Shown: positions 15,024-32,328 of the stretch, piece by piece
How the letters are laid out: each line of letters starts with the position of its first letter
Numbering within the stretch: position 1 is the stretch's first letter
Assembly: GCA_902778285.1 (NCBI GenBank)
Contig: CACYXC010000024.1
Span: 1-43,702, forward strand
From: Oscillospiraceae bacterium
GTDB lineage: Bacteria; Bacillota; Clostridia; Oscillospirales; Oscillospiraceae
Length of the DNA stretch: 43,702 bases
Direction of reading: 5' to 3'
Made by a program: the position numbers and the translations under genes
The notes under the pieces: generated by a model
The model's input: only the letters and a program-made list of their open reading frames with translations
Databases searched by the model: none
Told to the model about the DNA's origin: nothing

Positions 15024-15051
15024 AGGTCCGCACCCGGAGGGGTGCGGACCT
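15024..15051. terminator. Terminator hairpin, left copy flanking element A
   Basis: This 28-bp unit (perfect stem around CCGGAGG) begins 5 bp after the stop of the small gene. It is repeated exactly at 15167-15194. It has only two A before it and no T-run after it, so it is weak alone. Confidence 0.8.
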
Positions 15052-15167
15052 CAGGGTGTCGACAAAGTGTCGACACCCTGAGAATCAAAAATGAGAACTT
15101 TCGAAAAAGTTCTCATTTTTGAGAATATCAAACGCGAGAGGGAATACTAGGTTTGTCTACAGTCTGA
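15051..15167. mobile_element. Terminator-inserted miniature element, copy A (117 bp)
   Basis: The left end TCAGGGTGTCGACAAA (15051-15066) and the right end TTTGTCTACAGTCTGA (15152-15167) are imperfect 16-bp inverted repeats. Inside are a 15-bp perfect hairpin centred on TGTCGACA-AAG-TGTCGACA (15050-15082), a 16-bp hairpin with CAAAAATGAGAACTTT as left arm (15086-15121), and the shared word CGCGAGAGGG (15133-15142). No coding region fits. The element is bounded by exact 28-bp copies of the local terminator hairpin. Related elements are at 23242-23380 and 32134-32297. That it is mobile is inferred from the inverted ends and flanking duplication. Confidence 0.75.
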
Positions 15168-15194
15168 GGTCCGCACCCGGAGGGGTGCGGACCT
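15167..15194. terminator. Terminator hairpin, right copy flanking element A
   Basis: This is an exact 28-bp duplicate of 15024-15051. It is followed by only TT, so termination strength on either strand is doubtful. Confidence 0.75.
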
Positions 15195-15232
15195 TGCAAT
15201 GCATACAAAGGCTGAACAAGCCAAAACGGATT

Positions 15233-15285
15233 TGTCATTCTGAGGAGCGAGGCGACGAAGAATCCCACATATCGTTCAGAATGCG
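15233..15285. repeat. Dispersed TGTCAT-type repeat, copy 3, right end decayed
   Basis: It begins TGTCATTCTGAGGAGC and contains CGACGAAGAATC, as in the copy at 9597-9661. The right end reads GTTCAGAATGCGCG, so the last bases of the inverted end are lost. Confidence 0.65.
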
Positions 15286-15344
15286 CGTTTATTTGAGATC
15301 TTTCGCTCCGCACTGCCCTGACAGGGACGGGACCTGGTTTTCTC

Positions 15345-15753
15345 GTAGGGACGGCTGTCAGCCGCCCGCGGGCATCGTGCGTGGTTAGACAGGCGGGCGA
15401 GCGATGCTCGCCCCTACGGGTGGGTCGATTCTCCGCTGTAGGGGCCGACGCCCTCGGCGGCGCGTCTGTTCATCTGCGTATCGCGTCGGCGGGCGCTTCG
15501 TGAAGCGCCCCTACGGGGAGGGGCGGTTCTCCGCGCGTTGAGCCGCCCTGTGTAAGGGGAGGTGGCCGAGCGGAGCGAGGTCGGAGGGATTGTTGTCCGC
15601 GTTTTTCTGTTTGCCCGCCCGTCTGTCAGCCCCTCAGTCACTTCGTGACAGCTCCCCTTGCACAGGGGAGCCTTTTTGCGGGACGTCCGGGAGGCCGTCC
15701 CCTACAGAGCTTTGTTCGTTCCCCCTCGCAGGGACGGGCATTGCCCATCCGCG
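15345..15753. repeat. Cluster of GC-rich palindromic repeats with CCCCTAC/GTAGGGG ends
   Basis: At least six units occur: 15345-15370, 15392-15417, 15438-15462, 15488-15514, 15682-15704 and 15728-15753. Each is an imperfect palindrome such as GGGCGAGCGATGCTCGCCCC carrying a CTAC or GTAG end. The loop and stem bases differ from unit to unit. They alternate in orientation. Two GGCTCCCC-type units (15544-15590, 15630-15677) are interleaved. The second forms a hairpin followed by TTTTT (15651-15677) that could terminate plus-strand transcription. Confidence 0.7.
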
Positions 15754-15796
15754 GATATCGCGCGGGGACAGACAGGCATGACCCTTTTTCCGGCCG

Positions 15797-16909
15797 CTAC
15801 TTGATCAGGAACAGATACTTCCGGCAGAAGGGGATCTTCGAGAGCGGCCAGATGATCAGGCCGCTGAGCCCCAGCGGGGCGAAAAGCATGAACAGCAGTT
15901 TCGCGGCGCGGTGCCAGCCGGTAAAGTACATGTACCAGTGGAAACCCCAGAGGAAAAAGACGTGGAGCAGATAGAGCGCGAAGGCCGAGCTGCTGACGAT
16001 TGCCATCGGCTTTTCCCAACGGCGGAGGCGCCCAGCCCAGCGGCGGAAGCATTCGAATACGAAAACCGAGGAGAACAGGATCGCCGGGGACATATAGGCC
16101 AGCAGATGCGTCGAGCAGGAGTAGCAGTAATACTGCACGGCGCAGCAGCTCAGATAGCTCAGCGCGGTAATGAGAATGAGCATGCGGTTTGAAAGCTTCT
16201 CCAGCCCTCCGCGGGAGATCTGCCAGCCGGCGGCGATATAGATCAGATAGACAGAGACGAAATTGGAGTCATACAGGACAAAGTTCATCTTCGGCAGCCC
16301 AAAGATCTCCAGCCAGCCGTTGATCATGGGCAGCAGCATGTCGCAAAGGAAGGCCCCGGCCAGCGGCAGGAGCAGGAGCCTCGGCGCCGGCGCCCGGTAC
16401 AGGATCCAGGCGAAGATCGGGATGATCAGATACACGCTGAGGATCATCGGGACGTACCACATACTGTCAAAGCGCACCGGATCCAGAAACAGCAGCGTCT
16501 TGACGCAGCCCCAGAGCTTTTCCGTCAGGCTGGCGCCTGCCAGCGGCGCGTTGTAGGGCTTGAGCAGGACAAAGAACCAGAAGCCGAAAAAGGTCCAGAT
16601 CTCGCCCGTGATGAAGACGCTCAGCCAGTTGTGCCGGTAAAAGCGCCGGACTTCCTCTTTCGTGTCGAAGCGACGGTTCAAAAGCAGCGCGCCGGTGATC
16701 ATCAGAAACAGCGGCACGCCGTAGCGGCTGACGACGGTCAGCATCGCTTTCAGGATCGTGGATGCCAGTCTGATCGACACGAACTCCTGCTGCACGAAAT
16801 CATAATTGTCCCAGGTGCGGTTGACCGCGTGGTTGAGCGCGATCAGGAAGATGGCGGCGCAGCGGGCCGCGTCGAGGTAGAGGATCCTCGGCCTGTCTGT
16901 TTTTTCCAT
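15797..16909 (-). CDS. Membrane-bound acyltransferase, acyltransferase-3 family
   Basis: This 370-aa protein has about ten hydrophobic segments and transfers acyl (often acetyl) groups to extracytoplasmic sugars, lipids or peptidoglycan. The first segment carries the family signature LDAARCAAIFLIALNHA, in which an Arg and a His about ten residues apart are conserved. Another feature is SRYGVPLFLMITGALLL, the VPLFFxISG-like second segment. It ends in a basic tail (FCRKYLFLIK). GGAGG lies just before the ATG at 16909, and its promoter is at 16949-16977. The acceptor is unknown and nothing in the neighbourhood identifies it, although the genes to the right handle carbohydrates. Confidence 0.93.
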   Translation of the reverse strand: MEKTDRPRILYLDAARCAAIFLIALNHAVNRTWDNYDFVQQEFVSIRLASTILKAMLTVVSRYGVPLFLMITGALLLNRRFDTKEEVRRFYRHNWLSVFITGEIWTFFGFWFFVLLKPYNAPLAGASLTEKLWGCVKTLLFLDPVRFDSMWYVPMILSVYLIIPIFAWILYRAPAPRLLLLPLAGAFLCDMLLPMINGWLEIFGLPKMNFVLYDSNFVSVYLIYIAAGWQISRGGLEKLSNRMLILITALSYLSCCAVQYYCYSCSTHLLAYMSPAILFSSVFVFECFRRWAGRLRRWEKPMAIVSSSAFALYLLHVFFLWGFHWYMYFTGWHRAAKLLFMLFAPLGLSGLIIWPLSKIPFCRKYLFLIK

Positions 16910-16948
16910 GCTCCGCCTCCTTCCGCCGCGGTTTGAAACATCGTTTTT

Positions 16949-16977
16949 ATCATAGCGGATTTCCCGCCCGTTTTCAA
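16949..16977 (-). promoter_or_regulatory. Sigma-A promoter of the acyltransferase gene
   Basis: On the minus strand, TTGAAA (16977-16972), a 17-bp spacer and TATGAT (16954-16949) lie 40 bp before the start codon. Confidence 0.8.
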
Positions 16978-17043
16978 GTTATATTGTTTTTTCCGGCCAA
17001 TCGTGTTGCCGTGCCGCTTTTCCGCCGCCCGGCGACGAATCGG

Positions 17044-17073
17044 TTGACAAGCGCCCGCGAAACGCGATATGAT
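17044..17073 (+). promoter_or_regulatory. Sigma-A promoter of the GH31-symporter-hydrolase operon
   Basis: A consensus TTGACA (17044-17049), an 18-bp spacer and TATGAT (17068-17073). An in-frame ATG at 17069 falls inside the -10 box, which excludes it as a start codon. Confidence 0.85.
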
Positions 17074-17116
17074 ATTTACAGTTAAAGAAGATAAAAGCCA
17101 TTCGGGGAGGTCAGCC

Positions 17117-19096
17117 ATGCTCAAATCGAGTATCTCCTGGAACACCTGGACCCTGTCGGCCGGGGAGTGCCGGCTGCTGTCGCACACGCCGACCATGCCC
17201 TTTGCCTCCGCCGTCCGACAGGAAAAACGCTACAGCGCCAAGCGCGGCAGCGTGAAGACCGAGGTCGTGGAGACGGCCCGCATCCCGCTCACCGATCTGC
17301 GCGAGGAGGCCGACGGCGTCCTCTGTTTCTTTGCAGGGAAACACAGCCTGCGCGTCCGCCCTGTGGAGGAGAAGAACGGATTCACGCTGCAGCTCACAGG
17401 CGAGGAGGGCTGGTCCTACGAGTTCCGGCTCCCCGCGCGAAAGGGCGAGGCCGTCTTCGGCGGCGGTGAGCAGTACCGGAAGGTGAACCTGCGCGGCGAA
17501 CGGGTGGTCAACTTTGTCTCGGAGCACATCAAGGCCACGACCATCGTCGAAAAGGCACTGGTGCCCCGTCCGCTCTATCTCGAAAAGCCCCACAGCAGCA
17601 TCGGCAGCTATGCGCCCATGCCCGTCTTTGTCACCGACCGGGGGCGGCTGATCCTCTTTGACACCCCCTGCGACGGGCTGGCGGATTTCTCCGACGACAA
17701 CGAGCTGCTCTTTTCCTTTGACGCCTGCCCGAAAAGCCTGACGCTGCTCGCGGGCCGCAGCTTGAGGGAGCTCTCGGCCATGCTGGACGCGCGCATTCCC
17801 AACCGGCAGTACCTGCCCGCCTGGTGCCATGAGGGCATGATCCTCGGTATTCAGGGCGGCACGCAGACGATCCTGGACAAGTGCTTTAAGATGCTCGACG
17901 CGGGGGCGAAGGTCTCCGCCGTCTGGAGTCAGGACTGGTCGGGCGAGAAGCGCACCGTCATGGGCAAGCAGGTCAACTGGAACTGGGAGGTCGACAGGGC
18001 GCTCTATCCCGATCTCAGGGGCGCGATCAAAAAGCTCAACGCGCGCGGCGTGCGTTTTCTGGCCTACATCAACCCCTACCTCGTCAAGGGCGGCCCGCTG
18101 TATAAGCACTGCAAGGCCAAGGGCTGGCTGATCCGGAAGCAGGACGGCAGCATCTACCATATCAAATCCACCACCTTCGACGCCGGCATGCTGGATCTGA
18201 CCCATCCGGACGCGGTGCGTTATATCAAGGAGACGCTGATCGGCAAAAATATGCTCGACCTCGGCATTTCCGGCTGGATGGCGGACTTCGGCGAATACCT
18301 GCCGGTGGACTGCGTGCTGCACGACGGGGACCCGCGGCTTCTGCACAACACCTGGCCCGTGCTCTGGGCGAAGATCAACCGCGAGGCCATCGAGGAGTAC
18401 GGCGCGGAGGACGCCTTCTTCTTCACCCGCTCCGGCTACCTCGGCATCCAGAGCTACGCGCCCATCCTCTGGAACGGCGACCAGCACACCGACACCACCA
18501 GGGACTATGGCATGCCCTGCGTCATGCCCGCGAGCTTCTCCCTCGCCTTCTCCGGCGTGACCATGGTGCACTGCGACATCGGCGGCTTCTTCTCCTTTGC
18601 GAAGATGCGGCGAAACGGCGAGCTCTTCACCCGCTGGATGGAGATGGGATGCTTTTCCCTGCTCATGCGCAGCCACGAATCCATCCGCCCCTGGGCCAAC
18701 GCCCAGTTCGACGCCCGAAACGTCAAGCCCTACACCGTGAAGCTGACGAGGCTGCACGCGGCGCTGCGGCCCTACATCGAGCAGCTCGCCGAGGAGGCGG
18801 CCGCGGGCGTGCCCGCGCTGCGGCCGGACTTCTGGGAAGCCGGGAGCTTTGCCGCCTCCGGCGACCCCTACAGCTATTTTCTGGGCGACGATCTCTTCGT
18901 CTGCCCGGTGATCCGCCTCGGCGCGCGCAACCGGACGGTGCATCTGCCGGAGGGCGATTGGATCGGCTTCTGGACCGGGCGGAGCTACGCGCCCGGCAAG
19001 CATCAGGTCGTCGCCCCGCTGGGGAGGCCGCCGGTCTTCTACCGCAGGGGCAGCAAATATGCAGAGCTTTTCCGCCAGGCGGCGGACGGCGTCTAA
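17117..19096 (+). CDS. Glycoside hydrolase family 31, related to YihQ but with altered sulfonate pocket
   Basis: This 659-aa retaining alpha-glycosidase belongs to the GH31 branch that includes E. coli sulfoquinovosidase YihQ. The nucleophile Asp390 lies in GWMADFGEYLP and the acid/base Asp455 in LWNGDQ, both placed as in YihQ (D405, D472). In YihQ the sulfonate of sulfoquinovose is bound by R301, W304 and Y508. Aligning by eye the segment QDWSGEKRTVMGKQVNWNW and the CDIGGFF motif, these positions become Gln285, Trp288 and Phe491. Two of three are changed, so a different glycoside is likely. GGGGAGG lies 6 nt before the ATG at 17117. The operon continues with a symporter and another hydrolase, so the substrate is probably imported intact. 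No signal peptide is seen. Confidence 0.88.
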   Translation: MLKSSISWNTWTLSAGECRLLSHTPTMPFASAVRQEKRYSAKRGSVKTEVVETARIPLTDLREEADGVLCFFAGKHSLRVRPVEEKNGFTLQLTGEEGWSYEFRLPARKGEAVFGGGEQYRKVNLRGERVVNFVSEHIKATTIVEKALVPRPLYLEKPHSSIGSYAPMPVFVTDRGRLILFDTPCDGLADFSDDNELLFSFDACPKSLTLLAGRSLRELSAMLDARIPNRQYLPAWCHEGMILGIQGGTQTILDKCFKMLDAGAKVSAVWSQDWSGEKRTVMGKQVNWNWEVDRALYPDLRGAIKKLNARGVRFLAYINPYLVKGGPLYKHCKAKGWLIRKQDGSIYHIKSTTFDAGMLDLTHPDAVRYIKETLIGKNMLDLGISGWMADFGEYLPVDCVLHDGDPRLLHNTWPVLWAKINREAIEEYGAEDAFFFTRSGYLGIQSYAPILWNGDQHTDTTRDYGMPCVMPASFSLAFSGVTMVHCDIGGFFSFAKMRRNGELFTRWMEMGCFSLLMRSHESIRPWANAQFDARNVKPYTVKLTRLHAALRPYIEQLAEEAAAGVPALRPDFWEAGSFAASGDPYSYFLGDDLFVCPVIRLGARNRTVHLPEGDWIGFWTGRSYAPGKHQVVAPLGRPPVFYRRGSKYAELFRQAADGV

Positions 19097-19172
19097 CGAA
19101 ACTCGCTCCATTCCGCTTCCCCGGGACTGTTACGCCGGGAAAGCTCCATCTCCGCTCCTTCCGTCTTTCTTT

Positions 19173-19202
19173 CCCTTTCAAAGCGCTTCGGCTTTGAAAG
19201 GG
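19173..19202 (+). other. Intercistronic hairpin between GH31 and symporter genes
   Basis: CCCTTTCAAAGC (19173-19184) and GCTTTGAAAGGG (19191-19202) form a 12-bp perfect stem with a GC-flanked TTCG loop. No T-run follows. It may stabilise the upstream mRNA or be a processing site. Confidence 0.7.
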
Positions 19203-19288
19203 TGATTGGATCCGGGCGAAGTTTACTTCCTTTTCATTCAGCGCTTCACAGAAAAAACACATACATTTTTAAAAGAGAGGAAAGCGAG

Positions 19289-20710
19289 GTGGACAACTCC
19301 TATCTCGCGCGCACCAGCGGCATCAGGGCCAGAGACAAGATCGGCTGCGCCATGGGCGACCTGGCCTCCTGCCTGGTCTTCGGCCTGACCCAGAGCGTGC
19401 TGAACAAGTACTACACCGACGTGCTGGAGATCAGCGTCCTGAGCGTGATGATCATGACGATCATCGCCCGCATCTGGGACGCGATCAGCGACCCCATCTG
19501 GGGACGCATCATCGACGGCGCGAAGCCCCGGAAGGACGGGCGCTACCGCCACTGGATCAAGGTCTTCGCCGTGCCCGTGGCGCTGGCGGCGGTGCTGATG
19601 TTCGCGGACGTGCGCGGCTTCTCGGCCGGCGGACGGCTTGCCTGGATCTACTTCAGCTACATCCTCTTCGGCATGCTCTACACCTGCATCAACATCCCCT
19701 ACGGCTCGCTGGCGCAGGTCGTCACCTCCAGCGACAAGGAGCGCAGCTCCCTGCCGGTGTTCCGCTCCATCGGCTCCACCTTCGGCGCGATGCCCGCGAT
19801 GGTGCTGGCGAGCATGTGCTACGTCAAGCTCGCCGACGGCAGCAGCCAGATGGACTTCCACCGCGTGTTCGTCGGCGTGTGCGTCATCGCCGCGCTGAGC
19901 GTGCTGGCCTACTTCCTCTGCTATGCCTGGAGCAAGGAGCGCGTGGAGTCCAGGCCCGCCCCGCGGCAGAAGGGCGAGACCATGAAGGTCATCCGCATTC
20001 TTCTCAAGAGCCGCCCCTTCATGGCGGTATCGCTGGCCTCCATGCTCTTCCTGGCCGCCCAGATGTTCGGCCAGGGCTACAACACCTACCTCTTCCACCA
20101 CTATTTCAAGCAGCCGGGGCTGACCATGCTGCCCACCGTGTTCCAGTATCTGCCCGTGGCGGTGATCATGTTCTTTGCCACCCGCATGGGCAACAGGCTC
20201 GGCCGCCGCGAGGTCTGCTCCTACGGCGTGCTGCTGGCCGCGGTGTTCTACCTCGCGCTGTTCGTGCTGGCGCTCTTCGGCGTCACGAACGTGTGGCTGT
20301 ATCTGGCCGCCTGCCTCGCCTCCGGCGTGGGCACCGCCTTCATCTTCCTGCTCATCTGGGTCATGGCGACCGACGCCATCGACTACAACAAGGTCACTTA
20401 CGGCCTCAACGACGAGGCCACCAGCTACGCCTTCTACTCCTTCATGCGCAAGCTCGGCCAGACCGTGGCCACCATCCTCATCAACGTCCCGCTGCTGCGC
20501 ATCGGCTATAACGGCAGCGAGCTGAAGACCGAGGGCCTGAGCGACGCGGCCCTGCGGAGCATGTACAACTCCTCCGTCATGATCCCGGCGGTGCTGTTTC
20601 TGCTCGTGTTCCTGATCCTGCGCTTCTTCTACCCTCTGTCGAAAAAGCGCATCGAGGAGCTGCAGATTCAGAAGGAGGAGGCCTACCGCAAGCTGAACGA
20701 GGCCAAGTAA
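19289..20710 (+). CDS. MFS transporter of the glycoside-pentoside-hexuronide:cation symporter (GPH) type
   Basis: This 473-aa membrane protein has about twelve hydrophobic segments. The N-terminal motifs are typical of GPH symporters such as MelB, XylP or UidB: KIGCAMGDLASC with the conserved GD near the first helix, ARIWDAISDPIWGRIIDGAKPRKDGRYR with the cation-site-associated D and the loop between helices 2 and 3, and YGSLAQVVTSSDKERSSL. Such proteins import glycosides with H+ or Na+. I place the start at GTG 19289, because GAGAGG lies 8 nt upstream and the protein then has normal length. The in-frame ATG at 19202 would add 29 non-conserved residues. The next gene starts 2 nt after its stop. 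Confidence 0.92.
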   Translation: MDNSYLARTSGIRARDKIGCAMGDLASCLVFGLTQSVLNKYYTDVLEISVLSVMIMTIIARIWDAISDPIWGRIIDGAKPRKDGRYRHWIKVFAVPVALAAVLMFADVRGFSAGGRLAWIYFSYILFGMLYTCINIPYGSLAQVVTSSDKERSSLPVFRSIGSTFGAMPAMVLASMCYVKLADGSSQMDFHRVFVGVCVIAALSVLAYFLCYAWSKERVESRPAPRQKGETMKVIRILLKSRPFMAVSLASMLFLAAQMFGQGYNTYLFHHYFKQPGLTMLPTVFQYLPVAVIMFFATRMGNRLGRREVCSYGVLLAAVFYLALFVLALFGVTNVWLYLAACLASGVGTAFIFLLIWVMATDAIDYNKVTYGLNDEATSYAFYSFMRKLGQTVATILINVPLLRIGYNGSELKTEGLSDAALRSMYNSSVMIPAVLFLLVFLILRFFYPLSKKRIEELQIQKEEAYRKLNEAK

Positions 20711-20711
20711 C

Positions 20712-23186
20712 ATGGCGAAGGTCCACATCGGCTTCGGCTTTCACGTCAACTGCTATCACTCCTACCGGGGCGATACGAACGACGCGCTGGGCTTCGGCGG
20801 CGATATCCGCATCATACGGCACATTCTGGATACCCTGGACGATCGAAACGCCCGGGGTATCCCCGTTCGCGGGACCTGGGACTTTGAAAATGCCTTTACG
20901 CTGGAGAAGGTGCTGCCCGAATACGCGCCGGACATCATCGAGCGCGTGCGGCGGCGCGGCGACGAGAACCTCCTCATGGGCTACAACAACGGCGCCATGA
21001 GCGCCATGACCGAGGACGAGTTCGCGGCCTCCGTCGCCTGGGCGATCACGAACCCGTACGGCAGCGGGCTGGAGGACCTCTTCGACAGCTGCGAGAGGAT
21101 CATCCGCCCGCAGGAGGTCATGTTCTCCCCGCCGCAGGTGAAGTCCTACAAAAAGGCGGGTGTGGAGGCGATCTGCCTCTACTACAGCTGCATCTCCTTC
21201 GACGCCTTCCGCACGCTGATCCCGCAGCTGCCGGACGCGCTGGCCTTCAACCCCCTGCGCTACACCTGGCAGGGCGAGAGCATCACGGTCCTGCCCACCT
21301 ACTCCCCCAACGACGTCATGGACGCGGGCTCGCTGCGGGCGCTGGCCTTCGACCTGCACGAACAGCAGCTTCGCGGCGAGATCCCCGGCGACGTGTTTGT
21401 TTTCATCAACACCGACGCCGACAGCTTCCTCTGGGAGCCCATGGCCGCGCCGATGGACCGGCTGCCCTGCTTCGGCGGCATCGGCGGCTATATCGACGAG
21501 GTGGCCGATCTCGACTTCGTCGTGTTCGACACGCCGGGCGGCTACCTGAAAAGCCACGAACCCGCGGGCGAGATCAGCTTCGGGCAGGACGTGGCGGACG
21601 GCAACCTCTCCGGCTACATGAGCTGGAGCGAGAAGCCCTACAACCGCCTGATCTGGACAAGACTGGAGCGGGCGCGTGCCGCGGCGCGGCTGTATGCGCA
21701 CGACAGCGCTTCCCCCTTCTTCGAGACGCGGGTGCGGCTGCTCTCGACGACGCATTTCGGCCTCGCCTCCCCGGTCATGAACATCACGCGCGAGCGTAAG
21801 GCGCTGGCGCTGTCCGAGACCATGCTGCGGCAGGAGCACGACGCGCTGCCCTCCCCGGAAATGCTGACCCTGCGCGATCCGGGTCTCACCGGACTCGCCG
21901 CCGTGCAGCTCTCGCTGGCAGACGGCTTCTGCGAGGACTTCTCCCGCCTGCGCCCGGAGAGCGAGGGCCTGCGGAGCTGGACGGCCTGCGAGACCGGGCG
22001 GCATGCGAGCGGCTGTCTCGCGTCGCTCTGGCTGATTACCCGCTTCGACGCGCCGCGGGCGGAATACGCGCTGCGCTTCAGCCTCGGCGAGGGCAAAAAG
22101 CCCGCTTTGCTTGGCGGGAGCGGCTGGTCCGTGACGGACGCGCCGCGGGGGCTCTCCCTGCGCCTCTGCGGGCGGGAGCTCGCGGCGCTGGACAGCTGGA
22201 TCGATTACGGCGGCAAAATCTTCCGCTTCGATCCCCCCGTACGGGAGGCGCTGCCGCTGGGCGGCGAAGGCTGCGGCACGCGGCTGCGCGGGGCGGTGCA
22301 TCTGCCCGGGGAGCTTCACAGCGGCAGCTACTGCTTCGACTTCTTCACCTCCCCGGCGGCTGACTGCCTCTTTGTCCGCAGCGCGGTACAGTACCCCTAC
22401 ACGAGAGAGGACCGCGAGATCTCCTCGCAGGCCTCCACCCTCGGCCGCTACAGCGACACGAAATGGCTGCAGACCGCGCCCTTCGAGCTGACGCTGCGCG
22501 GGGGCGACGGCATCGCCGTCGAAAAGCGCAATTTTGCCGGGGCGCTCAGCCGCTACGAGATGGCGGACTTCTGGCGCGCCTTTCCGCAGAACGAGAACAT
22601 CTGCTCCATCAACCACCAGCTCACCGGCGGGACGCTCTGCGTGGCGGACACCCGCGGCGGGCTGCTGCTGGCCCACGCGCGGCAGGTGCTGGGCAGCATG
22701 GCCCACTGCCCGATGCGGCTGAAGACCGAGGGCGGCGCGCGCCTTGTGAGCATGAACCCCTTCGGGACCTATTTCGGGCCGCAGCGCTACTATCCCAGCC
22801 GCGGCAACGGCTGCTCCATGGAGCTGTATCTCGCCGCAGCGCCGCAGGCCCGCAGTCTGGGGCCGGCCTGCAACGGCGCCTTCGAGCAGGCGGTGCAGGC
22901 CGTCTTCCCGGTCTCCGGCTCCGCCCCCACAGCGGCGCAGCAGCGTCAGGCCGAGGCCATTGCCGACGGCGTGATCGCCCTCGGCGGCGGTCCGGTGCGG
23001 CCCTTCGCGGGCGACAACGTGCGCCTGCACGAGGCGGTGGACAACAAGGTCGAAGCGAAGGATCTCAGGAGCGTCACCTTTGTCGAGCAGTGCGGCGGCG
23101 TCGGCCCCGTGCTCGGCATGCTGGGCCGCTACGCGGCCAATCTCCTGCGCGCGCAGGCCCGTATGCGGAAGCGGGAAAAGCGCTGA
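20712..23186 (+). CDS. Large putative glycoside hydrolase, family not recognised (GH38/GH57-like barrel suspected)
   Basis: This 824-aa protein has no signal peptide. The first 330 or so residues look like a polysaccharide-deacetylase/GH38/GH57-like (beta/alpha)7 barrel: GFGFHVNCYHSYRGD at the start, then RGTWDFENAFTLEKVLPEY, LLMGYNNGAMSAMTEDEF and FSPPQVKSYKKAGVEAICLYY. The His and Asp of the first motif and the Asp/Glu of WDFENAF are candidate catalytic or metal ligands. The rest appears beta-rich and ends in a helical Arg-rich tail. It starts 2 bp after the symporter stop and shares an operon with GH31, so it probably processes the same imported sugar. I cannot assign a CAZy family with certainty; a non-hydrolytic role is possible. 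Confidence 0.6.
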   Translation: MAKVHIGFGFHVNCYHSYRGDTNDALGFGGDIRIIRHILDTLDDRNARGIPVRGTWDFENAFTLEKVLPEYAPDIIERVRRRGDENLLMGYNNGAMSAMTEDEFAASVAWAITNPYGSGLEDLFDSCERIIRPQEVMFSPPQVKSYKKAGVEAICLYYSCISFDAFRTLIPQLPDALAFNPLRYTWQGESITVLPTYSPNDVMDAGSLRALAFDLHEQQLRGEIPGDVFVFINTDADSFLWEPMAAPMDRLPCFGGIGGYIDEVADLDFVVFDTPGGYLKSHEPAGEISFGQDVADGNLSGYMSWSEKPYNRLIWTRLERARAAARLYAHDSASPFFETRVRLLSTTHFGLASPVMNITRERKALALSETMLRQEHDALPSPEMLTLRDPGLTGLAAVQLSLADGFCEDFSRLRPESEGLRSWTACETGRHASGCLASLWLITRFDAPRAEYALRFSLGEGKKPALLGGSGWSVTDAPRGLSLRLCGRELAALDSWIDYGGKIFRFDPPVREALPLGGEGCGTRLRGAVHLPGELHSGSYCFDFFTSPAADCLFVRSAVQYPYTREDREISSQASTLGRYSDTKWLQTAPFELTLRGGDGIAVEKRNFAGALSRYEMADFWRAFPQNENICSINHQLTGGTLCVADTRGGLLLAHARQVLGSMAHCPMRLKTEGGARLVSMNPFGTYFGPQRYYPSRGNGCSMELYLAAAPQARSLGPACNGAFEQAVQAVFPVSGSAPTAAQQRQAEAIADGVIALGGGPVRPFAGDNVRLHEAVDNKVEAKDLRSVTFVEQCGGVGPVLGMLGRYAANLLRAQARMRKREKR

Positions 23187-23203
23187 TCTCCGTTCTCACG
23201 CAA

Positions 23204-23242
23204 AAACTCCCCGGATTCGCCTCTCGCGAATCCGGGGAGTTT
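23204..23242. terminator. Terminator hairpin, left copy flanking element B
   Basis: This 39-bp unit is preceded by an A-run, so on the minus strand it is hairpin plus T-run and can end transcription from the amylosucrase side. One base (C at 23218) differs from the right copy (A at 23394). Confidence 0.85.
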
Positions 23243-23380
23243 CAAGCTGTCGACAAAGTGTCGACAGCTTGAAAATCAAAAATGAGAACTCCCCAAAAAG
23301 TTCTCATTTTTGAGTATATCAATCGCGAGAGGGAATAATGCGTGTCAAACTTCGGCAGCATGGGTTTGTCTACAGTCTGA
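23242..23380. mobile_element. Terminator-inserted miniature element, copy B (139 bp)
   Basis: The left end TCAAGCTGTCGACAAA (23242-23257) and right end TTTGTCTACAGTCTGA (23365-23380) match those of element A. Hairpin 1 has arms 23240-23255 and 23259-23274, 16 bp with loop AAG. Hairpin 2 has arms 23276-23290 and 23299-23313, with left arm TCAAAAATGAGAACT. The word CGCGAGAGGG lies at 23324-23333. The stem bases next to TGTCGACA are AAGC/GCTT here but AGGG/CCCT in element A, so the fold is kept while sequence changes. Flanking 39-bp terminator copies differ at one position. No coding capacity. Confidence 0.8.
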
Positions 23381-23418
23381 AACTCCCCGGATTAGCCTCT
23401 CGCGAATCCGGGGAGTTT
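23380..23418 (+). terminator. Terminator hairpin, right copy flanking element B
   Basis: The duplicate of 23204-23242 is followed by TTTTT (to 23420), so it is an intrinsic terminator for the plus-strand hydrolase operon. Confidence 0.88.
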
Positions 23419-23432
23419 TTATCTGTCTATCC

Positions 23433-25286: not shown

Positions 25287-25315
25287 TGGATCCACCTCCG
25301 TATGTTGAATAATGA

Positions 25316-26653: not shown

Positions 26654-27501
26654 GCTCTGTCCTCCAGAATCCGATCGACCGTGCGCGCAAAACCGCAGTC
26701 CTCGTTGCTCTCCGTCACCGCGTCCGCCGCGGCCTTCACCGCCGCGTCCGCGTTCGCCATCGCCACGCCGAGCCCCGCCGCGCGCAGCATCTCGATATCG
26801 TTCGAGCCGTCGCCGAAGGCCGCGCTCGCCGCGGCGTCGATCCCGAGCGCGGCGCAGAGCGCCAGGAGGGCCTTGCCCTTGCCGGCGCCGGCGCTGTTGA
26901 CTTCTATATTATTCTTCACCGACGTGGTGGCCTGCAGGCCGGGGAAGCGCCGCGGGAGTTCCCGGAGCGTCGCCTGCCGCAGCTCCTCGTCCTCGGGCCT
27001 GAAAAACATCTGCAGCTTCTGCAGGTCCTCGCCCCGCTGCCGCAGGGTCTCCTTCAGATCGTCCACGGGCCTTCGCAGGCCGTAGAGCATTTTCAGGACC
27101 TCCGGCTCCTTCGCGAAGTAGGGCGGCGCCGCCTCCAGCATGGCGCGCGTCATCCAGCCGCACTCGTTCTGGTAGCAGTCATAGATGACCGGCAGCGTGT
27201 CCAGATATTCATAGCAGCGGAGCGCGAGCTCCAGCGGGATATCCGCCCGGACCAGCGTGCGCTGTTCCTGCCGGTCGTAGACCGCGGCGCCGTTGGATAA
27301 GATGAAGTAGCGCAGAAACGGCAGCTCTTTCAGCTGCGGCGGCAGGCCGCGGAAGATGCGCCCGGTGGCCGGGGCCAGCGTGATCCCCCGCGCCGCGGCC
27401 TTCTCCAGGGCGGCAAGGTTTTCCTGCGGGATGCTCTTGTCATCCCGCAGGAGAGTGCCGTCCAGATCGAAGGCAATCAATGAATACGCGTGTTTACTCA
27501 T
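26650..27501 (-). CDS. HAD-superfamily hydrolase, Cof type
   Basis: This 283-aa Cof/YbiV-type phosphatase has a C2B cap and usually dephosphorylates sugar phosphates or nucleotide-like metabolites. Motif I is FDLDGTLL (Asp11 and Asp13), motif II SNGA, then a lysine in GKGKALL (motif III) and the acidic motif IV FGDGSNDIEML. It starts at residue 1 only 10 residues before motif I, so no later start is possible. No Shine-Dalgarno sequence precedes the ATG, and the predicted promoter places the transcript start at or within 2 nt of it, suggesting leaderless translation. It is the first gene of a three-gene minus-strand operon. Confidence 0.93.
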   Translation of the reverse strand: MSKHAYSLIAFDLDGTLLRDDKSIPQENLAALEKAAARGITLAPATGRIFRGLPPQLKELPFLRYFILSNGAAVYDRQEQRTLVRADIPLELALRCYEYLDTLPVIYDCYQNECGWMTRAMLEAAPPYFAKEPEVLKMLYGLRRPVDDLKETLRQRGEDLQKLQMFFRPEDEELRQATLRELPRRFPGLQATTSVKNNIEVNSAGAGKGKALLALCAALGIDAAASAAFGDGSNDIEMLRAAGLGVAMANADAAVKAAADAVTESNEDCGFARTVDRILEDRA

Positions 27502-27508
27502 ATTTTAT

Positions 27509-27537
27509 ATTATGCCGCACAAGCCCGGATTTGACAA
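27509..27537 (-). promoter_or_regulatory. Sigma-A promoter abutting the HAD start codon (leaderless candidate)
   Basis: On the minus strand, TTGTCA (27537-27532), a 17-bp spacer and CATAAT (27514-27509). The expected start is at 27503-27501 and the ATG begins at 27501. Confidence 0.7.
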
Positions 27538-27639
27538 GCCTTGATTTCGATTCAGGGGCGTTCATTCGGCTATTGTGCACAAAAACCTGATTCTGTCCCG
27601 CCTGTTTTTGTCAGTTTTCAAAAATATGTCATTTCCCTC

Positions 27640-27668
27640 TTGCAATTGTCCCCCAATTCGGGTATGAT
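27640..27668 (+). promoter_or_regulatory. Sigma-A promoter of the TAXI-TRAP transporter operon
   Basis: TTGCAA (27640-27645), a 17-bp spacer and TATGAT (27663-27668). The predicted start near 27675 is followed within 10-25 nt by a palindromic operator. Confidence 0.85.
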
Positions 27669-27684
27669 GGCATCACCGCAAAGG

Positions 27685-27701
27685 TGTATACTTGTATACA
27701 A
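27685..27701. promoter_or_regulatory. Palindromic operator candidate (GntR-type) before the TRAP operon
   Basis: TGTATAC-TT-GTATACA (27685-27700) is a perfect inverted repeat, and TTGTATACAA (27692-27701) is itself a perfect palindrome of the kind bound by FadR-subgroup GntR regulators. It lies just downstream of the predicted transcription start, a typical repressor position. No regulator gene is adjacent. Confidence 0.65.
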
Positions 27702-27718
27702 TTAAGGAGGATATAACC

Positions 27719-28750
27719 ATGAAAAAGATTTTTGCTCTGCTGCTTGCGCTGTGCATGGTCTTCGCGCTGTGCGCCTGCGGCTCCAGCGCCGCCCCCGCCC
27801 CCACCTCTGCTCCGGCCGCGGATGCTCCCGCTGCCGATGCGCCTGCGGACGCCGCTCCCTCTGCCAAGCTGACCATGGGCACCGGCGGCGAGGCCGGCAC
27901 CTACTACGCCTTCGGCGGCGTTCTGGGCAGCTACATCGGCTCGAACACCGACATCTCCATCAACGTCGTCTCCTCCGGCGGCAGCGCCGCCAATATCACC
28001 GGCATCGTGGTCGACGGCATCTTCGATCTGGCCACCGTGCAGTCCGATGTTATGACCTACGCCTACAACGGCACCAATTCCTTCACCGACAACAAGCTGG
28101 ACGCCTTCCGTGTCCTGGGCGGCCTCTACGCCGAGACCGTGCAGATCGTAACCTGCAACCCCGACATCAAGTCCGTTGCCGACCTGGCCGGCAAGAACGT
28201 CTGCGTCGGTGACGTGGGCTCCGGCACCTACTTCAACACCGTTGACATCCTGGCCGCTTACGATCTGACCCTGGACGACATCAAGCCCGTTTACCAGTCC
28301 TTCGGCGATTCCACCGAGAGCCTGAAGGACGGCAAGATCGACGCCGCCGTCATCACCGCCGGCGCTCCCACCACCGCTGTCGTCGACCTGGCCACCTCCA
28401 ACAGCGTGTACCTGGTCTCCATCGACGACGAGCACATGACGAAGCTCCTGGCCGACTGCCCCTGGTACGCTTCCTACACCATCCCCGCCGGCACCTACAG
28501 CGGCTTTGACTCCGACGCTGTCACCGTCACCGTAAAGGCCACGCTGGTCTGCCGCGCCGATCTGCCCGACGACGTGGCCTACGCCATCGTCTCCACGATC
28601 TACAACAACGCCGAGGCCATCACCGCGCTGCACGCCAAGGGCGCCGAGCTGTCTCTGAGCTTCGCCACCGACGGCATCGCCGTTCCCTTCCACGCCGGCG
28701 CTGCCAAGTTCTTCGCCGAGAACGGCATCACCGTCGACACGGGCGCCTGA
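27719..28750 (+). CDS. TAXI-family TRAP transporter solute-binding lipoprotein
   Basis: This 343-aa extracytoplasmic substrate-binding protein belongs to a TAXI-type TRAP transporter, which drives uptake of organic acids or amino acids by an ion gradient. The N-terminus MKKIFALLLALCMVFALCAC ends in a lipobox (LCAC), so Cys19-20 anchors it to the membrane. An Ala/Pro-rich linker follows. The TAXI signature appears as MGTGGEAGTYYAFGGVLGSY and continues with VVSSGGSAANI. The ligand cannot be inferred. AGGAGG precedes ATG 27719. The codon choice is strongly biased to C-ending codons, as expected for a highly expressed protein. The permease gene follows after a hairpin. Confidence 0.95.
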   Translation: MKKIFALLLALCMVFALCACGSSAAPAPTSAPAADAPAADAPADAAPSAKLTMGTGGEAGTYYAFGGVLGSYIGSNTDISINVVSSGGSAANITGIVVDGIFDLATVQSDVMTYAYNGTNSFTDNKLDAFRVLGGLYAETVQIVTCNPDIKSVADLAGKNVCVGDVGSGTYFNTVDILAAYDLTLDDIKPVYQSFGDSTESLKDGKIDAAVITAGAPTTAVVDLATSNSVYLVSIDDEHMTKLLADCPWYASYTIPAGTYSGFDSDAVTVTVKATLVCRADLPDDVAYAIVSTIYNNAEAITALHAKGAELSLSFATDGIAVPFHAGAAKFFAENGITVDTGA

Positions 28751-28785
28751 TCGCCGGGCACTCTTCATAAGGGAAAATCGCACAA

Positions 28786-28814
28786 CGGAGTGCCGTTTTC
28801 ACAACGGCACTCCG
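28786..28814 (+). other. Intercistronic hairpin between TRAP binding protein and permease
   Basis: Arms 28786-28797 and 28803-28814 form a 12-bp stem with a 5-nt loop and no T-run. Such hairpins commonly protect the binding-protein mRNA and lower permease expression relative to it. Confidence 0.75.
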
Positions 28815-28857
28815 ATTGAATATTCAAACACCTACTTTTTGACTCGGAGGGATCCCC

Positions 28858-30978
28858 ATGACAAAGCACAACAGGAACGATACACCGATGCACTCCTCTG
28901 CGCCGGGCGCGGATGAGCACGGCTTCGACCAGGCCGCGATGGACGAGGTCATGAAGAAATATGACCGGGAGTCCAACACCCGCGTCTGGGAGGGCTGGCA
29001 GAAGTGGGCCGTCTATGCCGTCATGGCGTTCTACTCCCTGTTTGTGATCTACGTCACGCTCTTCGCCACCTGGCTCGACCTGATCCGCTATCCGTCCTTT
29101 GTGGGCGGTATCCTGCTGGTCGGTTATCTGAACTATCCGGTGAAGAAGGGCGTGCAGCGCGTCAACCATATCCCCTGGTATGACTGGATCCTCATGCTCG
29201 CCGGCGCGGCGGCCTTCTTCTACGTCGTCGTCAACGCCCACAGCCTGACCGTCCGTCTGGGCATGTCCCAGGTCCGCCCCTATGAGATCGCGATCGGAGT
29301 CGTCGGCATCCTCACGCTGCTGGAACTCTGCCGCCGCGCGGTGGGCATCCCCATCCTGTGCGTGGCGGGCGTGTTCATGGGCTACGCGCTGTACTACTAC
29401 GCCGGGATCAAGCACCTGAGCGCCGCGGCCACCGTGCGCAATGTGACCGTCAGCCTGTTCTACAAGGTCCAGGGCGGCGGCATCCTCGGCACGCCGATCC
29501 AGGTCTGCGCCAAGTTCATCCTCGTGTTCATCATCTTCGGCGCCTTTCTGGAGCGCACCGGCATCGCCCAGTTCTTCATCGACCTGGCCAACTCTCTGGT
29601 CGGCCGCTTCTCCGGCGGTCCCGCCAAGGTGGCGGTCATCTCCTCGGCGCTGTGCGGCATGGTGTCAGGCTCCTCGGTCGGCAACACCGTCACCACCGGC
29701 TCCGTCACGATCCCGATGATGAAAAAGACCGGCTACAGACCGGAATTCGCGGGCGCCGTCGAGGCCGCGGCCTCCACCGGAGGCCAGATCATGCCGCCCA
29801 TCATGGGCGCGGCGGCCTTCCTGATGGCCGAGTACGTGGGCGTCCCCTACTCGAACATCATCCTCCGTGCCATTCTGCCCGCGATCCTGTACTTTACCGG
29901 CATTTTCATCGCCGTCCATCTGGAGGCGAAAAAGCTCGGTCTGCAGGGCATGCCCGCCGAGCAGCTGCCGCTGCTGAAAAACCTGATCGGCCGCAGCTAT
30001 CTGCTGCTCCCGCTGGTGATCCTGGTCTATCTGGTCTCCTCCGGCAGCAACACCATGGCCTTTGCGGCCGCCATCGCCATCCTCTTCGCGGTGCAGGTCT
30101 CCAACGCCCACCGCAACCCGGCCCTCGGCGTGATCGGCATCGCGGCGCTGCTGTGCTATCTGTTCGTCGCGCTGCCGGGCGGGGTGAAGCTGGCGCTCCT
30201 CTTCATCGCCATCGTCTGCGCCGCCGTGTGCATGTTCAGCAAAGAGGCCGTCATGACGCCGCTCGTCTTCTTCGACGCGCTGGCCAACGGCTCCAGGAGC
30301 GCCATCTCCGTGGGCGCCGCCTGCGGCGTGGCCGGCATCATCGGCGGCTGCATCACCATCACGGGCCTCGCCTCCCAGATCATCACCGCCATCATCACCC
30401 TCTCCCACGGCTCGGTGCTGATCGCGCTGTTCTTCACGATGCTCTGCTGCATCGTGCTGGGCATGGGCGTGCCCACCACGGCCAACTACTGCATCATGGC
30501 CTCCACCTGCGCGCCGATCCTGATCCAGCTCGGCATCCCCGTGCTCGCGGCGCACTTCTTCGTCTTCTACTTCGGCATCGTGGCGGACATCACGCCGCCC
30601 GTGGCGCTGGCAGCCTATGCGGGCTCGGCCATCGCCAAGGCGCCGCCGATGAAGACCGCCTTCAACGCCTCGAAGCTCGCCATCGGCGCCTTCGTCGTGC
30701 CCTACATCTTCGCGCTCAATCCCGCCATGCTGCTCATCGACACCACCGCCGTGCAGGTGGTTCTGGTGATCGTCACCTCCATCGTCGGCATCTTCGGCGT
30801 GGCCGCCGCCCTCAACGGCTACCTGCGCGGCCGGCTGCATCCGCTGCTGCGCGTGCTGATCGGCGCGGGCGGCCTGCTGATGATGGACCCCAGCCCCGCG
30901 ACCGACATCGTCGGCGTCGTGATGCTGGCCGCCGTCGTCGTGTTTCAGGCCACGCGCGCGAACCGGAAGACCGCGTAA
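28858..30978 (+). CDS. TRAP transporter fused permease (4TM-12TM, TAXI type)
   Basis: This 706-aa integral membrane protein unites the small (DctQ-like) and large (DctM-like) TRAP subunits, as is usual for TAXI systems. A 45-residue cytoplasmic N-terminus precedes the first helices. The large-subunit core is clear from AKVAVISSALCGMVSGSSVGNTVTTG split over helices, ASTGGQIMPPIMGAAAF, and the C-terminal repeat VLGMGVPTTANYC with VADITPPVALAAYAGSAIA. These hold the conserved substrate and Na+ site residues of the family. GGAGGG precedes ATG 28858. It works with the lipoprotein encoded upstream. A terminator follows at 30996-31037. No separate third subunit is present. Confidence 0.95.
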   Translation: MTKHNRNDTPMHSSAPGADEHGFDQAAMDEVMKKYDRESNTRVWEGWQKWAVYAVMAFYSLFVIYVTLFATWLDLIRYPSFVGGILLVGYLNYPVKKGVQRVNHIPWYDWILMLAGAAAFFYVVVNAHSLTVRLGMSQVRPYEIAIGVVGILTLLELCRRAVGIPILCVAGVFMGYALYYYAGIKHLSAAATVRNVTVSLFYKVQGGGILGTPIQVCAKFILVFIIFGAFLERTGIAQFFIDLANSLVGRFSGGPAKVAVISSALCGMVSGSSVGNTVTTGSVTIPMMKKTGYRPEFAGAVEAAASTGGQIMPPIMGAAAFLMAEYVGVPYSNIILRAILPAILYFTGIFIAVHLEAKKLGLQGMPAEQLPLLKNLIGRSYLLLPLVILVYLVSSGSNTMAFAAAIAILFAVQVSNAHRNPALGVIGIAALLCYLFVALPGGVKLALLFIAIVCAAVCMFSKEAVMTPLVFFDALANGSRSAISVGAACGVAGIIGGCITITGLASQIITAIITLSHGSVLIALFFTMLCCIVLGMGVPTTANYCIMASTCAPILIQLGIPVLAAHFFVFYFGIVADITPPVALAAYAGSAIAKAPPMKTAFNASKLAIGAFVVPYIFALNPAMLLIDTTAVQVVLVIVTSIVGIFGVAAALNGYLRGRLHPLLRVLIGAGGLLMMDPSPATDIVGVVMLAAVVVFQATRANRKTA

Positions 30979-30995
30979 AACGGCATACAGAACAG

Positions 30996-31037
30996 AACAT
31001 GCGTCAAGCTGTGCTCCGCAAAGCTTGACGCATGTTT
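30996..31037 (+). terminator. Intrinsic terminator of the TRAP operon
   Basis: Arms 30996-31010 and 31022-31036 form a 15-bp perfect stem with an 11-nt loop, followed by a short T-rich stretch (TTTCGTTTCC). Confidence 0.85.
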
Positions 31038-31053
31038 CGTTTCCTGATAAAGT
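31025..31053 (+). promoter_or_regulatory. Possible promoter of the secreted repeat-protein gene
   Basis: TTGACG (31025-31030), a 17-bp spacer and TAAAGT (31048-31053). The -35 lies in the descending arm of the upstream terminator. The -10 is a weak match. Confidence 0.5.
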
Positions 31054-31100
31054 AGAAACGGAAACGATGAAATCGGTACTGACTCGGAAAGGAGAATACG

Positions 31101-32084
31101 ATGAAAAAAGTTCTGTCCCTTCTTTTGGCGGCGGTCCTGCTGTGCGGCCTCTGCGGCGTCTCTGCGCTGGCCGAGGGCGAGGCGGACATTTTCGGCAGCT
31201 ACACACTCATCGACATGCTCGACAGCAGCTCGGACGAGGACATGACCGAGGCCATCCAGGCCATGGCCGCGCTCGGGATGTCGGCCACGCTGACCGTGAA
31301 CGAGGACGGCAGCGCGCTGATGGATATCTTCGGCGAGCAGCAGGCACTGACCTTCGATTTTGACGCGCAGACCGTCACCGACGGCGAGGAAGCCATCTCC
31401 TATTCCTTTGACGGCGAGAAGCTGATCATCGGCGATGAGGAGCAGGGCTTCGTCTTCAGCAAGGCGGGCGTCGAGATGCCCCAGCGCAGCGGCGGCCCCT
31501 TCTCCTTCTACCTGATGACGGAGCTTCTGGACGGGGGCGGCGAGGACCTCCTGCCCGAAATCAAGGCCTCCCATGGAGAAGACACTCTCTGCGCGCTGTA
31601 TCTTTTCAAGGACGGCAGCGGGATCCTTGAGATGTACGGCGAAAGCACTCCGCTCCAGTTCGATTTCGACACGATGACGATCACGGCCGGGGATGAGACC
31701 GCCGTCTTCAAGCAGGAAGGCGACGTTCTGCGCATCGTGGATACTGAGAACAGCATCGGGACATTCGTTCTGTCCGATCCCGGCTGTGTCGGCCCCTATG
31801 TCATGGCCGCCATGGTCAGCGGCGAGGACGGGGACATGAGTGAACAGCTCGCCCTGCTGGAGGCCGTGAACATGCTGCCGAAGCTGGTCATCGACGAGGA
31901 CGGCAAGGGCGCTTTGGACCTGTTTGGCAGCGAAATGGCTCTGGTCTTCGACTTCGAGGCGCTGATGGTTGACATTGAGGGAGAGTCGATCCCCTTCACC
32001 TATGACAAGGGCGTTATCGAAATCGGCGAGGGCGATCAGTTCATGAGCTTCGCCCGCGTGCTGCCGGAGGCGGACGGGGACTGA
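31101..32084 (+). CDS. Secreted protein with three imperfect ~90-residue repeats, unknown function
   Basis: This 327-aa product is not a family I recognise. A Sec signal peptide (MKKVLSLLLAAVLLCGLC, cleavage likely after SALA) precedes an acidic mature chain. Three similar units of about 90 residues can be aligned by eye, starting GSYTLIDML, GPFSFYLMT and GPYVMAAMV. Each contains an N-terminal helix, then a beta pattern with GxALxDIFG / GILEMYG / GALDLFG followed by LxFDFxxxTV. The repeats suggest three copies of a small beta-domain binding something at the cell surface. Comparable lipoprotein repeats occur in gut Clostridia with no assigned role. GGAGA precedes the ATG. It is followed by element C. 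Confidence 0.8.
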   Translation: MKKVLSLLLAAVLLCGLCGVSALAEGEADIFGSYTLIDMLDSSSDEDMTEAIQAMAALGMSATLTVNEDGSALMDIFGEQQALTFDFDAQTVTDGEEAISYSFDGEKLIIGDEEQGFVFSKAGVEMPQRSGGPFSFYLMTELLDGGGEDLLPEIKASHGEDTLCALYLFKDGSGILEMYGESTPLQFDFDTMTITAGDETAVFKQEGDVLRIVDTENSIGTFVLSDPGCVGPYVMAAMVSGEDGDMSEQLALLEAVNMLPKLVIDEDGKGALDLFGSEMALVFDFEALMVDIEGESIPFTYDKGVIEIGEGDQFMSFARVLPEADGD

Positions 32085-32102
32085 TCCCGGTTCAAGAGCA
32101 AA

Positions 32103-32134
32103 AGGTGCTGTGCCGCAAGGGGCACAGCACCTTT
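32103..32134. terminator. Terminator hairpin, left copy flanking element C
   Basis: This 32-bp unit is preceded by AAAA-rich sequence, giving hairpin plus T-run on the minus strand. It is repeated exactly at 32297-32328. Confidence 0.85.
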
Positions 32135-32297
32135 CACGCTGTCGACAAAGTGTCGACAGCGTGAAAGGCAAAAATGGGAACTTCCGAAAAGGTTCCCATT
32201 TTTACGCAGATTGCACTGCGAAAGGGGATTACCGTCCCCTCTCGCGCTCTCCCCATGCGAATCCGACTTGTTCTGCATAGCTTTGTCTACAGTCTGA
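32134..32297. mobile_element. Terminator-inserted miniature element, copy C (164 bp)
   Basis: The left end TCACGCTGTCGACAAA (32134-32149) and right end TTTGTCTACAGTCTGA (32282-32297) match elements A and B. Hairpin 1 is 18 bp here (32130-32147 with 32151-32168) with ACGC/GCGT beside TGTCGACA. Hairpin 2 (32170-32203) has AAAAATGGGAAC/GTTCCCATTTTT, changed from GAGAAC/GTTCTC in both arms. The middle is longer than in A and B and contains GGGGATTACCGTCCCC. The word shared by A and B occurs in inverted orientation (CCCTCTCGCG, 32237-32246), so the interior has been inverted or replaced. Confidence 0.8.
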
Positions 32298-32328
32298 GGT
32301 GCTGTGCCGCAAGGGGCACAGCACCTTT
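32297..32328 (+). terminator. Terminator hairpin, right copy flanking element C
   Basis: The exact duplicate of 32103-32134 is followed by a T-run to 32330. It is a good plus-strand terminator for the secreted-protein gene. Confidence 0.88.

Follow-up and report, generated by a model that had tools for sequence, protein, structure and literature searches.

Miniature elements related to IS1182-family insertion sequences lie between duplicated terminator-like hairpins

Insertion sequences (ISs) of the IS1182 family are already known to target hairpins, and duplication of a whole hairpin was proposed on paper earlier. The available parts of the two closest studies describe terminator targeting by IS1272 and TnSha1 with partial deletion of the hairpin (Furi 2016, PMC4923244) and replacement of the target hairpin by IS1272 without target duplication (Wan 2017, PMC5678879). 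The stem-loop model in the latter also draws pathway b, in which the element is joined at the 5' feet of a cruciform and the stem-loop is thereby duplicated in full. Here, we analyzed a contig of 43,702 nucleotides from an Oscillospiraceae bacterium (CACYXC010000024.1; the whole contig is referred to as the window), which carries three miniature inverted-repeat transposable elements (MITEs), each between two copies of a terminator-like hairpin. As far as the available texts go, the likeness to IS1272 and TnSha1 extends to the family name, 16-bp ends, insertion into hairpins, in many cases terminators, without primary sequence specificity, and several independent insertions in one terminator in both orientations (PMC4923244, PMC5678879). 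The hairpin is wholly or partly removed by those elements, with no duplication described, whereas here it is duplicated, being present twice at 68/81 MITEs and 49/66 related ISs. This is exactly the product that pathway b predicts, which the available part of that paper gives as a drawn alternative without an example (PMC5678879).

Other accounts of the family, likewise available in part, are more varied. ISPse1 from Paracoccus is 1,653 bp long with ends alike at 16/16 positions (PMC3281130); unlike the elements described here, it has 4 bp as the last figure of its table entry, which we read as the duplication, and the IS1182 family is therefore not uniform. IS1182-related elements are described as moving with or without target duplication or deletion (PMC12056078), and IS1182 was over-represented between convergent genes in one survey (PMC9208149), as expected if terminators are the target. 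Our literature search lay outside ISfinder and most subscription journals, and in its listings we recognized no description of hairpin duplication as the rule for an IS clade, and none of these MITEs. ISfinder reportedly lists long, variable duplications for the IS1182 family, and its curators may have noticed the lengths.

Three MITEs of the window and their IS1182-family partner

The three short elements occupy positions 15051-15167, 23242-23380 and 32134-32297. A first-pass annotation, made from the sequence alone, had given them 16-bp inverted ends. The ends are indeed conserved at the three loci, with right ends alike at 16/16 bases, but the left ends match the inverse at 13/16 positions rather than at all 16. 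A search of the window with TTTGTCTACAGTCTGA returned three perfect right ends and three left ends with three mismatches (six matches, compared with a shuffle mean of 0.07), and the left motif TGTCGACAAAGTGTCGACA, allowing up to three mismatches, was found in the window only at the same three loci, each time on both strands (shuffles, 0.00). The lengths that the annotation had given for the flanking hairpin copies were confirmed by the direct repeats: 28 bp and 32 bp at elements 1 and 3, where the copies are identical, and 39 bp at element 2, where they differ at one base. At element 3, the repeat extends two T beyond the symmetric hairpin. DNA folding of the three target hairpins gave -14.8 to -21.8 kcal/mol (z, -5.3 to -8.6), and 0/200 shuffles reached an equally good fold. 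All three lie just 3' of plus-strand frames in a mechanical list (14345-15019, 20712-23186 and 31101-32084). The features of the three loci are as follows:

15024..15051, +, left target-hairpin copy of element 1 (28 bp, including the outer A..T pair)
15051..15167, +, MITE 1 (TCAGGG...TCTGA; outer T and A shared with the target duplication)
15050..15082, +, left-terminal hairpin of MITE 1 (15-bp stem, 3-base loop)
15085..15122, +, internal hairpin of MITE 1 (17-bp stem, A and T runs at the foot, terminator-like)
15167..15194, +, right target-hairpin copy of element 1
23204..23242, +, left target-hairpin copy of element 2 (39 bp)
23242..23380, +, MITE 2
23240..23274, +, left-terminal hairpin of MITE 2
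23276..23313, +, internal hairpin of MITE 2 (placed by eye)
23380..23418, +, right target-hairpin copy of element 2 (one difference from the left copy)
32103..32134, +, left target-hairpin copy of element 3 (32 bp)
32134..32297, +, MITE 3 (164 bp)
32130..32168, +, left-terminal hairpin of MITE 3 (18-bp stem, including flanking target bases)
32170..32204, +, internal hairpin of MITE 3 (placed by eye)
32297..32328, +, right target-hairpin copy of element 3, followed by a T run

A hairpin also forms the left end of the MITE, and its three variable stem bases are complementary in 56/57 complete copies, which comprise six variants, one of them accounting for 46/57 copies. Because the stem bases remain complementary across variants, the fold may be selected or copied by a hairpin-templated process. 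In the window, the left-terminal stem bases in question lie at 15057-15075, 23248-23266 and 32140-32158. The internal hairpin is strong and, having runs of A and T at the foot, resembles a bidirectional terminator. The window also holds an unoccupied hairpin with a 17-bp stem at 612-648 (TCAAACTG...CAGTTTGA), whose ends are similar to those of the element and which is possibly a remnant.

Five contigs of the window genome break off 96-99 bp inside a longer element with the same 16-base end and the beginning of an open frame, ATG ATG AC. Relatives carry the rest of this frame, which encodes an IS1182-family transposase, and the MITE right end and the IS left end agree at 16/16 bases. The annotation had proposed looking for a full-length, transposase-encoding relative that shares the ends, and this check was positive; the hint that a DDE enzyme was unlikely did not hold, since the partner is a DDE transposase. 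The IS1182 model NF033551 (cut-off 270) scores L086, L178 and L337 at 444.9, 478.1 and 461.5 bits, the Pfam domains are DDE_Tnp_1_6 and DUF772, and D147, D304 and E431, invariant in 34 transposase sequences, are the presumed catalytic triad. Among solved structures, no convincing relative was found by sequence (best E, 0.49). When a model of the transposase (mean pLDDT, 82.2) was compared by fold, only piggyBac (6x67) was matched at E <0.001, followed by ISCth4 and Tn5, and TM-scores were low; with that single match and such scores, the comparison indicates a DDE fold and no more. At L035 and L049, a long subterminal hairpin of the IS left end directly precedes the transposase start and may keep the gene silent under read-through from outside.

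Having ends in common with an autonomous element, a length too short for a transposase, and a target duplication, the elements are assigned as MITEs, that is, non-autonomous derivatives of an IS1182-family DDE insertion sequence, and the transposase of this family very likely moves them. We also considered a different transposase as the driver, for example the gene classed as IS630-type by the model matches of its relatives, the tail of which adjoins the interior of a MITE on contig C32. We rejected this candidate and regard any such driver as highly improbable: the junction is internal rather than at the MITE end, all 16 right-end bases are common to the IS1182-type element, and the identical tail adjoins other DNA on contig C74, which marks the IS630-type gene as a separate element.

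Two named ISs have the same ends as the MITEs, namely ISEfa7 (sibling Enterococcus faecium plasmids) and IS1562 (phage Javan87), the names being taken from record annotation. Unlike the MITEs, both are full-length ISs; the one copy of each type that was read has a hairpin duplication, of 25 and 26 bp, respectively. The name ISEfa7 was absent from the papers listed by one literature search.

Duplicated hairpins at occupied sites and single hairpins at empty sites

The window genome (2.43 Mb, 76 contigs) contains 139 matches to the right end (up to two mismatches; reversed control, 0) and approximately 118 left hairpins (up to one mismatch; 119 and 116 matches on the two strands of a near-palindrome). 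The right end also occurs in relatives, as the annotation had suggested checking: with up to one mismatch, it is present in 33/99 genomes, comprising the window genome, 31/60 others of the genus and 1/38 outside it. As the reversed control gave one match in each of 3/99 genomes, genomes with only one or two right-end matches may represent chance.

From the window and further fetched stretches, we collected 93 distinct right ends, leaving out those with less than 34 bp downstream; 81 had at least 200 bp upstream and 12 had less. MITE lengths ranged from 100 to 279 bp, although some internal length variants may be artefacts because the assembly contains N runs (L009, L029 and L256). In 68/81 copies, the sequence right of the element recurs immediately to its left. 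Every one of these 68 repeats holds a stem of at least 6 pairs, and 65/68 hold at least 8 pairs; loops are 3 bases in 21, 4 bases in 43 and 5 bases in 4. No two repeats begin alike over 20 bases. The hairpin differs between loci and agrees on both sides, as had been claimed for the three window elements. In a swapped-flank control, 10/810 pairs scored as a repeat, 9 of which involve L245, where the right flank is MITE sequence.

The same arrangement recurs at full-length ISs. An alignment of four transposases was used to scan one genome per species (84,980 species), and the best 80 of 408 relatives were used. Both ends and flanks could be scored at 66/80 loci, the remaining 14 lacking a motif or flank. 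The same hairpin stands on both sides at 49 of the 66, with a hairpin on both sides in all 49; two different hairpins flank 11, one hairpin 4 and none 2. L182 was scored among those with one hairpin, yet another analysis finds its repeat. Random positions adjoined a hairpin in 70/1320 cases, and swapped flanks gave a repeat in 0/322. Among a further 21 loci with stretches too short for this scoring (L282-L302), L286 had a repeat and the remainder were unscorable.

Among 14 plasmid and phage records, 7 are matched (Peribacillus pB, Sutcliffiella, an ISEfa7-type copy of E. faecium, Cetobacterium, Providencia, Aminobacter and Streptococcus phage Javan87), spanning Bacillota, Fusobacteriota, Alpha- and Gammaproteobacteria and one phage. 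One record was legible on one side only, and the distant family members L342-L344 (28-30% identity), also among the 14, showed no repeat and no convincing ends. At these insertion sites, duplication of the hairpin is what usually results, both for a clade of ISs and for a large family of MITEs.

For two insertions of Bacillus sp. OV166, empty sites were reconstructed with a single hairpin copy between the flanks and sought in 60 genomes of the genus, carrier included. Thirty loci were found, of which 8, including the carrier itself, fell below the alignment threshold. Empty sites aligned across the junction at 22 loci from 22 other genomes (4 for site L186 and 18 for site L187); 17 have one perfect hairpin of at least 7 pairs and 5 lack a perfect one. 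None of these 22 sites in Bacillus relatives has two hairpins, and none has IS ends; the second hairpin therefore comes with the element. For window element 2, the only window element searched, no empty site was found because the relatives are too distant in DNA, with matches of 22-55 bases in 10/60 other genomes. The empty-site comparison that the annotation had proposed thus succeeded for the Bacillus carrier and failed for element 2. Its central claim, that the elements insert at terminator-like hairpins and duplicate the stem-loop, is supported by the 68 MITEs, the 49 IS loci and the 22 sites without a second hairpin, and neither of the outcomes it had named as adverse, a lack of empty sites or unconserved ends, was found.

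Geometry of the duplication and models of insertion

We counted the pair just outside the unambiguous repeat at 64 MITE sites, having dropped 4/68 without a clean TCA start, and at 38 IS sites, having removed by hand 12/50 repeats with ambiguous ends (L121, L135, L147, L149, L156, L165, L167, L174, L179, L184, L191 and L193). The 5' base is A at 95% and the 3' base T at 100% of the MITE sites, and the corresponding values at the IS sites are 95% and 95%. Because this flank rule holds at both, the ends T-CA...TG-A most likely include the duplicated outer A..T pair, so that the outer T and A would belong to the target and the element proper would be CA...TG. A copy from Lachnospiraceae GAM79 with an outer T..A pair (L117, the same copy as L196) supports this, as its junctions read A-CAG...CTG-T.

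Including the A and T, the duplication measures 20-43 bp at the 64 MITE sites, in place of the short fixed-length target duplication of ordinary DDE transposons. Its center lies within one base of the hairpin center in 62/68 MITE repeats. With L228 excluded (1/64; no stem was called by the script), half-length of the duplication correlates with half-length of the palindrome (r = 0.56, n = 63; maximum of 5,000 permutations, 0.45). Further pairs outside the duplication number none at 14 sites, two at 18, and 8 or 11 at 6, and 37/63 sites have 0-2. The annotation's suggestion of cuts at the two bases of the stem is therefore right in outline, each cut falling on the 5' side of an A close to the foot whose pairing partner is T. 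T-tracts are split about evenly by orientation (MITEs, 29 right, 22 left and 13 equal; ISs, 16, 13 and 9).

We consider it likely that an IS1182-family DDE transposase targets DNA hairpins, mostly resembling intrinsic terminators, and that the MITEs derive from its IS. This reading draws on the shared ends, the position inside unrelated hairpins, the duplication from A to paired T with its near-symmetry and stem-dependent length, and the empty sites, all of them features of sequence, and it suggests that the transposase reads DNA shape rather than sequence. A DDE transposase ordinarily attaches both 3' ends of its element to the target a set distance apart, and this distance is the length of the target duplication. 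A fixed enzyme could nevertheless give a variable duplication, because the 5' feet of a cruciform lie side by side whatever the stem length. In the mechanism that we propose, the target palindrome would extrude as a cruciform, and the transposase would join the element at the two 5' feet, cutting 5' of the A that pairs with T near the foot of the stem. Unfolding would leave single strands over the hairpin on each side, and gap repair would turn each into a full hairpin copy. Joining at the cruciform feet appears to be the best-supported mechanism, the cruciform itself being something we infer. The more specific proposal, to which we incline slightly, is that this DDE clade recognizes an extruded hairpin by its four-way junction and, at each foot, cuts on the 5' side of the A in an A-T pair, with the target dictating the size of the duplication.

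Several results weigh against this reading. The mechanism is deduced from end products only, and a profile search of the window genome with NF033551 gave 0 matches to the transposase, probably because the gene is unassembled there. Stem length accounts for only part of duplication length (r = 0.56), and 3-11 further pairs lie outside the cut at 23/63 sites. Some copies stand between two different hairpins: 11/66 scorable IS loci, 4/5 copies of the genus of the window that have both ends legible, 2/10 copies in the complete genome of GAM79, and 3/14 plasmid and phage records (Peribacillus pA, Exiguobacterium and S. simulans). These sets overlap: L100 shares its contig with L163, one of the 66, and L192 counts both among the 66 and among the two GAM79 cases. 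There are also the 2 IS loci without a hairpin and the 4, including L182, with only one, and no reciprocal hairpin partner for the mixed copies was present among the GAM79 copies listed.

In the mixed copies L086, L087, L088, L100, L192, L219, L334, L336 and L338, each end still adjoins a hairpin. Mixed loci make up 9/24 in records titled MAG (metagenome-assembled genome) or uncultured, compared with 2/42 in others (Fisher P = 0.001), and misassembly through misjoined repeats may therefore explain many of them. Those in complete records are real, and could have arisen by recombination between copies, or by a transposition joining one end to a second hairpin with deletion of the DNA between. 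Among the MITE copies examined, a flank of the mixed type was seen once (L252).

The mixed loci are also what one would expect if two hairpins had pre-existed as double terminators, with the element landing between them. We give this very little credence, as we do the related idea that the element carries a copied hairpin along, because the same hairpin stands on both sides of 68/81 MITEs and 49/66 ISs, the 68 MITE repeats are distinct, and 0/22 empty sites have a second hairpin; carried hairpins would recur between loci, whereas 0/322 swapped flanks gave a repeat. Of greater weight, though still unlikely, is action of the transposase on a hairpin in single-stranded DNA, in a lagging-strand gap or an R-loop near a terminator, with repair making the second copy. 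The targets are terminator-like, RNA and DNA hairpins both form there, and the end product would presumably be the same. The A..T boundaries on both sides, however, fit a duplex cruciform, and a one-strand target might be expected to bias the strand, whereas T-tract orientation is nearly even.

Less probable again is a model in which the target is bound as a normal duplex palindrome, each arm by one transposase subunit, with cuts at a distance imposed by the arms and no need for extrusion. Taken by itself, the dyad symmetry is compatible with a dimer bound to inverted half-sites, but the composition table shows no conserved half-site beyond the A..T pair, duplications of 20-43 bp are hard to reconcile with a rigid dimer on linear DNA, and the hairpin loops are short (3-5 bases).

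Should recognition of the extruded hairpin by its four-way junction be correct, this would be, to our knowledge, the first natural transposition system in which target secondary structure sets the length of the duplication. It has long been difficult to observe cruciform extrusion in normal cells, and the insertions would then map it in living cells: an element that inserts where a good hairpin forms, storing the feet as a duplication, would be a natural recorder of extrusion. Hairpin duplication would also supply the other half of the published IS1272 model. As the hairpin is kept, and kept twice, many copies may have been able to spread in a small genome with little damage.

Exceptional and nested copies

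The 13 MITE copies without a repeat are varied. Two fall at assembly gaps (L029 and L256) and others are nested (L245, twice, and L262). L017 has a truncated left hairpin, L252 an exchanged flank, L243 equal arms with different loops, and L042 no recognizable left end. L236 is seemingly in a reading frame, and the second matches of L013, L241 and L263 are probably something other than this element.

At L245 and L262, the right end of a MITE is joined to the left hairpin of another MITE, and the element seems to target its own terminal hairpin. On contig C32 (L031, 1-640), parts of three MITEs stand in a row with one hairpin copied between each, an arrangement that we interpret as successive insertions into a single terminator; the first of the three is cut by the IS630-type gene tail. 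The other side of this row may be contig C53 (L077), which begins next to the same hairpin. At L013, a minus-strand end at 1843 has a different right end, TTTATCAACAGTCTGA, beside another hairpin, and probably belongs to a second, related element family. Finally, the MITE at L236 (around 340-465), apparently within a reading frame, has by eye a 6-bp duplication, AGTTCT, symmetric about the small palindrome GGAAGTTCTTCC; this resembles the loop-duplication route drawn as pathway c in the available part of Wan et al. (PMC5678879).

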